This document shows, one piece after another, positions 28,650 to 32,868 of a stretch of DNA of 64,000 bases (its first letter is position 1; each line of letters opens with the position of its first letter). Location: NCBI GenBank assembly GCA_026708005.1, contig JAPOVR010000156.1, forward strand, positions 1 through 64,000, written 5' to 3'. Below the pieces are notes generated by a model, which was not told the origin of the DNA, ran no database searches, and saw nothing but the letters and a program-made list of their open reading frames with translations. This DNA is from Actinomycetes bacterium (GTDB lineage Bacteria; Actinomycetota; Thermoleophilia; Gaiellales; Gaiellaceae). Made by a program: the position numbers and the translations under genes.

Positions 28650-29562
28650 ATGACCGACCTGCATCCCAACGACATCGAGCTGCTCGAATGCTTCGAGGGC
28701 GACACCGATCCCACGACCGCGGAGACGATCCGCCAGCACCTGGAGAGCTGCGCACAATGCAGTGAGCTGGTCGCCCTGCTCGCGGCGGGCGCAGCGCGCT
28801 CACATCGTCTTCTCCGCTCGAGATGTCAGCGCGCTCACATCGTCTTCTCCGCTCGAGATGTCGCGCGAGCGCATCGCGCATACCCTCGATTCGCTGGGAC
28901 CACAGGAGCGAAGGCCCACGCCGCAATTGCTCCAGCCACGCCGCCTCGTCGCGGTCCTCGCGCCCGTTGCCGCCATCGCAGCGCTCGTGGCCATCTTCTC
29001 GACCGTCGACCTCGGCTCTGGAGATGAAGAGGCGGCCTCACCGCCGGCGGCCCTGGCGCCAGCCCCGGCCCCGGCACCTGCAGAGCCCCCAGCAGCGCCA
29101 CCACCACCAGCCGCGGCGCCTCCGCCACCGTCAGCTGCGGCCACGCCAGCTGAAACCGCGCCGGCCCCAGCGCCGCCCCCGCCAGCAACCCCTGCGCCGG
29201 CTGATGCCGCGTCGCCGCCGCCCGCGGCGCCGGAGCGCATCGTGCCGGAGCCCGGGCCGAAGTCCGAGGCGATGCCGATAGCAGCAGGCGAGGAGCAGAC
29301 GGTGCCACCGGACTCACCGGCCATGGATGAGGGTCTCGCGGGGTCCGATGCGGCCCTTTCGGCCGCGCGCCTCGGCGAGATCGTACGCGCGGTCGAGGGG
29401 CCTGCCGAGGCCGTCGTGCGCCTGCTGCGCGAGGCCGGCCTCAACGCGTCGATCAGCGAGGACGGGGCGGTCGAGGTGGCCTCGTCAGATCGCGCGGCGG
29501 TCGAGCACGCCGTCGCCCTGCTTGCCGACGGCGACATCGTCGTCGTGCTGGTCAATCCCTAG
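28650..29562 (+). pseudogene. Anti-sigma factor split by a frameshift at a 35-base tandem repeat
   Basis: The first frame (ATG 28650) encodes a zinc-binding anti-sigma domain with IRQHLESCAQCSELVALLAA (HxxxCxxC) and then runs out of register to 29027. The other half lies in a second frame: RERIAHTLDSLGP, a membrane segment RRLVAVLAPVAAIAALVAIF, a 100-residue Pro/Ala-rich spacer and an ordered C-terminal domain (LGEIVRAVEGPAEAVVRLLR, ending 29562). Between them lies a 35-base sequence in two tandem copies (28792-28861). Removing both copies joins the halves in frame as LLAAGARERIAHTLD. The partner sigma gene is directly upstream and also broken. Confidence 0.75.
28792..28861. repeat. Two tandem copies of a 35-base repeat inside the anti-sigma gene
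   Basis: The copies at 28792-28826 and 28827-28861 are identical and contain CACATCGTCTTCTCCGCTCG. Their unit length is not a multiple of three. With zero or three copies the zinc-finger and membrane halves of the anti-sigma gene would be in one frame; with one or two copies they are not. No third copy was seen elsewhere in the window. Confidence 0.9.
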
Positions 29563-30396
29563 CTCGCGAATCCAGCCGGCTGCTCGAATCGGGCAGGCCC
29601 TGTCGCCACCAGCCCAACTCTGCAGGGGCACCGTCCAGGCCTGCGACCGGCCGCTCGAATCGGGCAGCTCCGACCGCCGTGGCGGCCGCTAGTAGCCGGC
29701 AGAGCCGCCGCTGGTAGCCAGCAGAGCGAGGTTATCGGCCGGCAGGAACGCGGCCATCGGCCGGCAGGAGCGCGGGCATCGGCGAGCGGGGGGCGCCGCT
29801 GCCCCTGGGAGCGCAGTTGCCGCCAATTGCGGGATCAAGCCGGCCGCGAACTCCCAGCAGCGCCGCGCGGAGACTGCGGGTGGCCAGGTGAGCAGCCCCG
29901 CTCGGCAATCCCTGATCCTCGTGCGGGCGCGGGGCCGCCGAGCCGCCCCGAAGGCTGCGAAGGGCAGCCCCCCTCCCGGGAGAGGGTAGCCCAGAAAAGC
30001 GCGCAGCTTGCGCGCAGCTGGTGACAAGAGTGCTGACAAACCGTCACGAAACTGTCACCGGCTCTGCCCAGCCACGCCAGCTGGATGGGACACCGACACT
30101 CGGATGACCGCTGCTCCCCCGCCTTGCCCAGCCGTCCAGACAGGACGCAGGCCTTGGGACAACCGCAGCCGTCGCGGTTGCTCTCAGGTGAGGGCTGGCG
30201 GCAGCAGGAAGGGGGAAGGAGACACAGCCTTCGTCGTCCCTTCCCGCACGTATCGCTCCCCGATCACCGGCGAGCTTTGCCTGGGGCTCTCCGGAGTCGG
30301 CAGAGTCCGGAGTCGGCAGAGCACCGGTTCTCCCCAGCAGCGCCTCACCCAGCGCCCAGGCCCGGACGCGGTTGGCTGACAACGCTCGCCGGCCGC
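29563..30396. other. 834-base intergenic region between convergent genes, with repeats
   Basis: No convincing gene is present; translations on both strands are Arg/Pro/Gly-rich. It holds two copies of a motif with GCTCGAATCGGGCAG (near 29580 and 29653). It also holds a hairpin GGCTGC (29953-29958) / GCAGCC (29964-29969) that may terminate transcription from one side, and copy A of the dispersed intergenic element directly after it. Confidence 0.6.
29970..30055 (+). repeat. Dispersed intergenic element, copy A
   Basis: It contains GGGTAGCCCAGAAA, then GCGCGCAGCTTGCGCG, then spaced GTGACA/CTGACA/GTCAC motifs ending in CGTCACGAAACTGTCACC. It is closest to copy B. It lies between convergent genes, 340 bases from rex. 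Confidence 0.75.
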
Positions 30397-31107
30397 TCAG
30401 GCCAGCGAGAAGTAGAGCGCGTGGAGGAGCTCGGCGGCCGGGTTCGAGTTGTGGATCGTAACGTCCGGAGGCGCGTTCAAGAGCGCCTCCGAGTAGTTGA
30501 AGATGATGCGGACGCCGTTGGCAACCACATCGTCGGCGACCTGCTGAGCCGCTGCTGCGGGCACAGCGAGCACTCCGATCGTGATCGCCCGGTTGCGGAT
30601 GACCTGCTCGAGCTCGGAGTAGTCACTGACGACCGTCTGCCGAATCGGACGCCCGATCTTGGCCGGATCGATGTCGAACACCGCCTCGACATTGAACCCG
30701 TGGTCGGCAAAGGCGCCGGAGCTCGCCACCGCCTGTCCCAGGCGGCCGGCGCCAAACAGCGCGATGTTGTACTGACCCTGCGTGCGCAGAATCTTGCGAA
30801 TCTCGGCGATCAGGAGGTCGGTCGCGTAGCCGACCCCACGCTTGCCGAACTTGCCGAGGCTGGAAAGGTCGCGCCGTATCTGTGTTGCGTTGACGTTTGT
30901 GTACTCGCTGATCTCCTGCGAGGAGATGCGCTCCTTGCCCATCTTCTTCGCCTGCGTGAGCACCTGCAGATACCGGCTCAGGCGCGCCGCAACACCGACC
31001 GTCAACCGGTCGGTGACGCCCAGCTGATCCCGCCCGAATCGCGTGTCCACCGCCACAGCGCGCCGCTCAGCATACCCGCGAAGATACGCTGAGATCGCGG
31101 TAGACAC
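30397..31107 (-). CDS. rex: Redox-sensing transcriptional repressor Rex
   Basis: This 236-aa protein binds NADH and releases its operators when the NADH/NAD+ ratio rises, freeing fermentative and respiratory genes. The N-terminal winged helix has ISSQEISEYTNVNATQIRRD and LSSLGKFGKRGVGY. The Rossmann domain has IALFGAGRLGQAV with FDIDPAKIG, and the C-terminal swap helix NSNPAAELLHALYF. The start at the GTG at 31107 is uncertain; a GTG at 31056 gives a length closer to other Rex proteins. It is the last gene of the operon that carries TsaD and the selenoprotein, 24 bases after the latter. Confidence 0.95.
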   Translation of the reverse strand: MSTAISAYLRGYAERRAVAVDTRFGRDQLGVTDRLTVGVAARLSRYLQVLTQAKKMGKERISSQEISEYTNVNATQIRRDLSSLGKFGKRGVGYATDLLIAEIRKILRTQGQYNIALFGAGRLGQAVASSGAFADHGFNVEAVFDIDPAKIGRPIRQTVVSDYSELEQVIRNRAITIGVLAVPAAAAQQVADDVVANGVRIIFNYSEALLNAPPDVTIHNSNPAAELLHALYFSLA

Positions 31108-31131: not shown

Positions 31132-31374
31132 CTAGCCAGCCTCCCTCAGCCGGCGGATGAGCGCCGCCGCCTCAACGCGGAACCAGAACACCTCGACGCC
31201 ATCGACCAAGACGACAGGGATTCGATCTCGGTAGGCGATCTCGAGCTGCCTGGACGTCGCGATGTCGACCTCATCGAGGTCGAATGGCTCGTTGGCCTGT
31301 ACCTCTGCGAGCACGCGCCGCGCGCCCTCGCAGAGGTGTCAGCCCTCCGCGTGATAGAGAACGACGCGCCTCAC
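31132..31374 (-). CDS. Glutaredoxin-like (DUF836 type) selenoprotein with a UxLC active site
   Basis: From the GTG at 31374 the frame reads VRRVVLYHAEG, then TGA at 31341-31339, then HLCEGARRVLAEVQ and onward to a TAG at 31132, 80 residues in all. Glutaredoxin-like DUF836 proteins have LYxxxGCHLC here, so the TGA replaces exactly the first active-site cysteine and the second is kept. The remainder is a normal thioredoxin fold (FDLDEVDIATSRQLEIAYRD, the cis-proline loop RIPVVLVDG). A perfect 11-bp hairpin follows the TGA. I therefore read the TGA as selenocysteine. The alternative, an inactive gene restarting at GTG 31314, would lose the redox site. It lies between tsaD and rex. Confidence 0.8.
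31301..31337 (-). promoter_or_regulatory. Candidate bacterial SECIS hairpin
   Basis: One base after the in-frame TGA the transcript forms ACCUCUGCGAG (31337-31327) paired with CUCGCAGAGGU (31311-31301), 11 perfect pairs. The 15-base top GGCGCGCGGCGCGUG can add four more G-C/G-U pairs and leaves a small G-containing apical loop. The apical loop starts about 17-18 bases after the UGA. Bacterial SECIS elements are stem-loops in just this place, inside the coding region, that recruit SelB and Sec-tRNA. Confidence 0.75.
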
Positions 31375-31399: not shown

Positions 31400-32368
31400 C
31401 TAGGCCGACGAATACGCATCGATGTCGCCGTAATGCGGGAAGCGGAGCTTCGGAACGTACCGAGCTGCAGAGCAGATCATCGCGCCGTTGTCCGTGCAGA
31501 GCTCAAGCGGCGTCAGGCTCACACCGAGGGGCTGCAGCTGCCGACGAAGCTCCGAGTTCGCTGCAACCCCTCCGACGAGCGCAAGCCGCTCGACTCCAAG
31601 CGCCTCGCCGGCGCGCTCCAACCCCCGCACAAGCGCGGTCACGATGGCACGTTCGTACGAGGCGGCCAGATCTGCGCGGCGACTCGCGAGCTGCTCGGCG
31701 GTGAGATCGCGCACCGCATAGAGAAGCGCGGTCTTGAGACCCGAGAACGAGAAGTCGTGCCCGGGCACGCGCGCCACCGGAAACCTGTATGCCTCGGGAT
31801 CGCCGTCGCGCGAAAGCCGGTCGAGGGCCGCCCCGCCTGGGTAGCCGAGACCCAGAAGCCGCGCACCCTTGTCGAAAGCCTCGCCGGCCGCATCGTCGAG
31901 CGTCGTCCCGATCCTGCGAAAGCGATCGCGCTCGCTCACGTCGAGCAGCAGCGTGTGGCCGCCGGTCGCAACGAGACATGCGAACCGCGGCTCTACAGCA
32001 TCGTCCCCCAGAAACAGCGAGGCGACATGGCCGTGCAGGTGGTCCACAGGCGCGAGAGGGAGCCCACGAGCCCACGCAAGTCCCTTCGCGAAGGCAAGGC
32101 CCACCAGCAACGCGCCGACGAGACCAGGGCCTTGGGTCACCGCGATCTCGTCGATGTCGTCGAGTGTGGTACCGGCCTCGAAGAGCGCCTCGCGCACAGC
32201 GGGCTCGATCAGCTCCAGATGCCGCCGCGAGGCAACCTCGGGAACGACGCCCCCGTAGCGCGCGTGCAGCTGGGCCTGGGAGGAGACGACGTTCGAGAGC
32301 ACCTGCCCGTCCTCGGTCATGCACGCGGCAGCGGTCTCGTCGCAGGAGGTCTCGATGCCGAGAATCAC
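31400..32368 (-). CDS. tsaD: tRNA threonylcarbamoyladenosine transferase subunit TsaD
   Basis: This 322-aa ASKHA-fold protein transfers the threonylcarbamoyl group to A37 of tRNAs that read ANN codons. Motifs are ILGIETSCDETAAACM at the start, VDHLHGHVASLFLG with the metal-binding HxxxH, LVATGGHTLLL, and the late LALVGGVAANSELRR. I start at the GTG at 32368, overlapping the rimI stop (GTGA); the longer upstream frame adds unsupported residues. It works with TsaB and TsaE, both encoded immediately upstream in the same operon. Confidence 0.95.
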   Translation of the reverse strand: MILGIETSCDETAAACMTEDGQVLSNVVSSQAQLHARYGGVVPEVASRRHLELIEPAVREALFEAGTTLDDIDEIAVTQGPGLVGALLVGLAFAKGLAWARGLPLAPVDHLHGHVASLFLGDDAVEPRFACLVATGGHTLLLDVSERDRFRRIGTTLDDAAGEAFDKGARLLGLGYPGGAALDRLSRDGDPEAYRFPVARVPGHDFSFSGLKTALLYAVRDLTAEQLASRRADLAASYERAIVTALVRGLERAGEALGVERLALVGGVAANSELRRQLQPLGVSLTPLELCTDNGAMICSAARYVPKLRFPHYGDIDAYSSA

Positions 32369-32868
32369 CGCGAGGGAGCAGTGTTCAACCGCCCAAATGG
32401 CTGCCCACGGGCCACCGTGCGCGGCGCGGGATCTTTCCACATAATGATCGCGTCCTCCCGGTTATCGGTGTAGTAGCCACGCCGGATGCCCCGCCGCGTG
32501 AATCCGAATCCCTCATAGAGGACGATGGCTCCCTCGTTCGATGGGCGCACTTCAAGCGTGCAGCCGGCCAGAGGATCGTCCTGAAGGCGCGCAAACAGCT
32601 CGTCAAGCAGCGTCGTGGCAATTCCCTGGCGCCGATAACCGACGTCGATCGCGAGGTTCATGATGTGCCAGGCACCGACAGCGCGCGACACGATCAGATA
32701 GCCGACAAGCCGGTCGCGCGTTGTGTCGAAGGCCCCGAGACACAACGAGGCACGCTTGGCGAGCTCGCTCGTGAACATCGTCCGCGACCAGGGCGTTGGG
32801 TAGCTCCGACGCTCGATGCGCTCCATCGATGGGAGGTCGTCCCTGGAGAGCAGCCGAAGCTCGATCAC
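32365..32868 (-). CDS. rimI: RimI-like N-alpha-acetyltransferase
   Basis: This 167-aa GNAT-fold protein acetylates the N terminus of ribosomal protein S18 in E. coli; related proteins act on other N termini. Visible features are LRLLSRDDLPSMERIERRSY, the acetyl-CoA loop VGYRRQGIATTLLDELF and the C-terminal EVRPSNEGAIVLYEGFGF. It overlaps tsaB upstream and tsaD downstream by 4 bases each. The association of rimI with the tsa genes is widespread in bacteria. Confidence 0.93.
   Translation of the reverse strand: MIELRLLSRDDLPSMERIERRSYPTPWSRTMFTSELAKRASLCLGAFDTTRDRLVGYLIVSRAVGAWHIMNLAIDVGYRRQGIATTLLDELFARLQDDPLAGCTLEVRPSNEGAIVLYEGFGFTRRGIRRGYYTDNREDAIIMWKDPAPRTVARGQPFGRLNTAPSR

Follow-up and report, generated by a model that had tools for sequence, protein, structure and literature searches.

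The window, a 64,000-nucleotide stretch of actinobacterial DNA, holds between tsaD and rex a short reading frame interrupted by a TGA, which raises the question of whether this codon marks a broken gene or is read as selenocysteine (Sec). An earlier note on this DNA proposed an unannotated selenoprotein. This proposal is supported by the presence of selA, selB, selC and selD in the same genome and by a TGA column common to three species. From these sequence comparisons, we consider it highly probable (about 0.9) that the frame encodes an 80-residue selenoprotein, in which the UGA at codon 12 is read as Sec via a stem-loop.

A frame with a single TGA beside rex

The tsaD gene, the 80-codon frame and rex all lie on the minus strand (Table 1). 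The frame contains a single in-frame TGA, which replaces the first Cys of a CHLC motif, and the predicted read-through product begins MRRVVLYHAEGUHLCEGARRVL. The earlier note had placed this frame correctly, and the strand is now assigned as minus. GC content by codon position is coding-like both upstream (0.82/0.36/0.82) and downstream (0.76/0.40/0.84) of the TGA. The frame is present in one copy in the window genome. As had been anticipated, gene finder output for the locus would be only the 60 residues after the TGA, an ORF confirmed here to open at GTG 31314, 24 bases past the UGA. Annotation pipelines would clip the gene in this way and lose its active site.

Table 1 Features of the tsaD–rex locus (feature, position in the window, strand, remarks)
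tsaD	31400-32440	minus	Pfam; next gene upstream of the 80-codon frame
Predicted selenoprotein gene, 80 codons	31374-31132	minus	GTG start, TAG stop; DUF836/Glrx-like, thioredoxin-fold; U-H-L-C motif (Sec12, Cys15)
In-frame TGA, codon 12, predicted to be read as Sec	31341-31339	minus	column is Cys in other aligned homologues
SECIS-like stem-loop	31337-31301	minus	11-bp stem, G.G mismatch, 5-bp upper stem, CGG loop
Apical core CGAG-N-GCGCG-NGG-CGCGU-N-CUCG	31308-31330	minus	common to all three UGA-bearing copies
rex, redox-sensing repressor	30397-31107	minus	Pfam; next gene downstream of the 80-codon frame

We compared the read-through protein to domain families and known structures. It matches the DUF836/Glrx-like family PF05768 (E of 2.4e-17, 63.5 bits, gathering cut-off 26), whereas its score against the classical glutaredoxin family PF00462 is 17.9 bits, below the Pfam gathering cut-off of 22.9. 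Thus, the description "glutaredoxin-like" given to it earlier is right for the Glrx-like domain of PF05768 but does not extend to the classical family. The sister proteins from G174 and G261, two species of another genus in the same family, pass PF00462 at 30.1 and 28.6 bits, and PF05768 scores higher for both. AlphaFold2 models the read-through protein as a thioredoxin fold (pLDDT 90.5), in which helix 1 opens with the U/C motif. Foldseek matched this model to thioredoxins and to the DUF836-like structures 2fgx, 1wjk and 1ttz, as well as to Corynebacterium glutamicum mycoredoxin-3 (8pr6), all of which have a similar fold.

Family knowledge suggests that the 80 residues form a thiol-disulfide oxidoreductase of the DUF836/Glrx-like type. 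Its active site would be U-H-L-C, and it probably belongs to the thiol redox system of the cell. We propose that SelB, together with Sec-tRNA(Sec), would decode the UGA at codon 12 as Sec, with the stem-loop one base past the UGA directing the insertion. Sec12, at the start of helix 1, would attack the disulfides of a substrate, and Cys15 would resolve the resulting selenenyl-sulfide. The protein may also be functionally linked to Rex.

The predicted Sec codon among homologues

Homologues of the frame are present in 280 of the 399 genomes of the class, and in 88 of the 103 of the family. The codon aligned to the TGA was read among the matches listed, from which 51 distinct gap-free loci entered the comparison. 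All 51 of these other loci carry TGC or TGT, while TGA is found in the window, G174 and G261, at exactly the same codon. This is the Cys/Sec exchange that had been suggested as a check, and the occurrence of the TGA in two other species places the column beyond chance. A scan of the 399 class genomes for a GUxLC pattern returned these three as the only true cases, and the same scan of 396 genomes across the phylum gave no true case besides the window itself; the remaining hits in both sets were chance frames without the domain. Three further homologues do contain stops, G394 (TGA), G209 (TAA) and G287 (TAG), but each has Cys at the site and these stops are therefore not at the Sec codon.

Apart from the TGA, all three copies that carry it keep an intact frame. 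TGA decay elsewhere in the gene, named beforehand as evidence that would count against Sec, was not seen: in the loci read, the domain contains no further stop. In each of the three species, the residues ahead of the TGA still resemble those of Cys homologues. With few exceptions among the loci tested, the rex gene adjoins the homologue, whereas tsaD was seen beside it in some of them only, in part owing to the shortness of the stretches. The Cys DUF836 proteins of the class whose genes neighbour rex thus share family and gene order with the window protein, and those that were aligned differ from it in having Cys at the Sec position.

A protein tree of Rex with 48 rows groups the three UGA carriers in a single clade (support 100/98, 200/200 bootstrap trees). 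Downstream of the TGA, G174 and G261 differ with a dN of 0.21 and a dS of 1.00, a dN/dS of about 0.21. Comparison of these sister copies with the window gives a dN/dS of about 0.53–0.55, values that are only rough because dS is high. The shared TGA codon, the single clade and the dN/dS of about 0.21 together point to one old Cys-to-Sec switch kept under selection, rather than to a nonsense mutation or an assembly error. The simplest history to which the sequences point is one switch in the common ancestor of the three carriers, retained through a deep split.

Selenocysteine machinery and a candidate SECIS

The assembly of the window genome (3.72 Mb, 92.7% completeness) contains all four genes that the earlier note had said to look for, as identified with NCBIfam, Infernal and ARAGORN. 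One contig (C14) carries an intact selA-selB-selC cluster, with selA (TIGR00474, 529 bits), selB (TIGR00475, with the SelB C-terminal winged helix PF09107) and, directly after them, a tRNA-Sec gene that is above the Rfam cut-off and is called tRNA-SeC (TCA) by ARAGORN. The selD gene (325 bits) lies on contig C56.

The two sister assemblies gave a different result. Neither G174 (82% complete) nor G261 (81% complete) yielded selB over the cut-off or a tRNA-Sec, and their best selC-like matches are tRNA-Ser and tRNA-Leu. The selD gene was found in both, but it is not diagnostic because selD without selB is common in the family, where selD is over the cut-off in 88 and selB in 61 of 103 genomes. 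We estimate the chance of joint absence through incompleteness at a few percent if the two are independent (0.18 x 0.19), and higher if the region assembles badly. Some fairly complete genomes of the family (such as G057, 93%) keep selD without selB or selC, and selD may therefore have another use.

We looked within the window genome for other selenoproteins. Its FdhA, encoded at 35103-37211 of C14 about 20 kb from selABC, has Cys rather than Sec at the active site (RLCHASS) and its SelD is also a Cys form, so neither could serve as a known selenoprotein for SECIS comparison. A molybdopterin oxidoreductase-like gene at 23451-24886 of contig C48 has an in-frame TGA, apparently in place of Trp, together with a change of frame; it looks decayed or mis-assembled and was set aside for the same comparison. 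When the window and other loci of the genome, about 34 kb in all for the latter, were scanned for read-through frames, no second convincing selenoprotein emerged. In a 2006 survey, either FdhA or SelD was a selenoprotein in every Sec-using genome (PMC1794560). The window genome, which is incomplete, differs from this in that its SelD and its FdhA, which is over the family cut-off, are both Cys forms, and the Sec trait would therefore depend on less common selenoproteins, the DUF836 protein among them.

The 11-bp stem that starts one base past the TGA, as described previously, is part of a stem-loop with an MFE of -39.7 kcal/mol (z of -4.85 against dinucleotide shuffles). Its lower stem, below the core shared by the three copies, is perfect only in the window. 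The bSECIS model has a loop of 3–9 nt with G in the first two bases, an upper stem of 4–16 bp, a distance of 16–37 nt from the UGA and an MFE of at most -7.5 (PMC13188914). The three UGA copies agree with all of these constraints, with a core MFE of about -11 to -14 and a CGG/AGG loop whose first base is 19 nt past the UGA and whose second and third bases are G. An Rfam scan of the hairpin region gave no match.

We also compared the hairpin to synonymous recodings of the same peptide. Against this null, the 9-bp core has P of 0.06–0.09, the full pair count P of 0.018 for the window copy but only about 0.12 for the other two, and the MFE P of 0.03–0.13 (0.033 in the window). The same pairing of the 9-bp core occurs in two Cys homologues. 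Since the peptide CE(S/G)ARRVL in a GC-rich genome nearly dictates the helix, the hairpin is weak evidence by itself, and with synonymous-codon P values of 0.02–0.13 we do not treat it as the main proof. The earlier argument from the hairpin was thus overstated, because the helix recurs almost unchanged in close Cys homologues, while its geometry and its fit to bSECIS stand. The structure is compatible with a SECIS but is no proof of one.

Alternative readings and relation to known selenoproteins

The TGA could be a nonsense mutation or a wrong base call in a broken gene, from which only the 60-residue C-terminal piece could be made. Changes of this type do occur in the assembly, as in the C48 oxidoreductase gene with its TGA and frame shift, but here the same TGA stands in three assemblies from two genera that form one clade, in frames that are otherwise open through the domain and under purifying selection after the TGA. 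We regard this reading as very improbable, in agreement with the initial judgement that a random nonsense mutation was unlikely. Hardly more credible is an intact gene whose UGA is read without Sec, for instance through a near-cognate tRNA that supplies Trp or Cys, or an intact gene in a clade where the codon has been reassigned. The selB and selC genes missing from the G174 and G261 assemblies would favor this, but the window genome has the complete Sec machinery, and the site needs a thiol or selenol, being Cys in all other aligned homologues. Furthermore, rex in the window ends in TGA, and so TGA still acts as a stop in this genome.

Translation could instead restart past the UGA, giving a purposely truncated protein without the first active-site residue, for example a regulator. 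The GTG that opens the 60-residue ORF provides a start for such a product, but that product would lack the entire U-H-L-C motif along with strand 1 and part of helix 1, and the similarity to Cys homologues before the TGA, maintained in all three species, also makes this a slim prospect. Sec at codon 12 is the reading that we prefer.

Comparison of the predicted selenoprotein with known families indicates its closest counterparts. A Sec-containing glutaredoxin of PF00462 with a UxxC motif has been listed (PMC13188914, PMC1088965). It is likewise a small thioredoxin-fold protein with UxxC decoded from UGA and a downstream SECIS, whereas the window protein instead matches PF05768 and is linked to rex. 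The Uxx-star glutaredoxin-like selenoproteins (NF041212, NF047338) show weak similarity over the Grx-like core (E of 0.0004–0.01). The window protein scores 16–20 bits against NCBIfam cut-offs of 66–97 and is therefore no member of these families. An inventory from 2026, which covers 119 families of prokaryotic selenoproteins, has Grx under PF00462 and does not contain PF05768/DUF836. Searches of the literature returned nothing relevant on selenocysteine in DUF836 proteins or on selenoproteins of Thermoleophilia. Judged from this published inventory, the protein looks like a new selenoprotein family, of the familiar kind of UxxC thioredoxin-fold selenoproteins. The fuller proposal is that Cys was exchanged for Sec a single time, beside rex in a Thermoleophilia-like lineage, and that this gave rise to a new family, the Sec form of DUF836. 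It is tentative, and we put it somewhat short of an even chance.

The locus adds a predicted selenoprotein family in an actinobacterial lineage, with a Cys-to-Sec switch that can be traced and has close outgroups of the Cys form. A thiol oxidoreductase predicted to depend on selenium here sits next to the NADH-sensing repressor rex. Downstream of rex, an apparently non-coding stretch (29685-30321) contains several short tandem repeats with units of 22, 22, 11 and 16 bp. A further tandem repeat (28792-28867, 35-bp unit, 2.2 copies, 97%) lies past a sigma-factor-like ORF and may alter the frame in which a possible anti-sigma gene is read.
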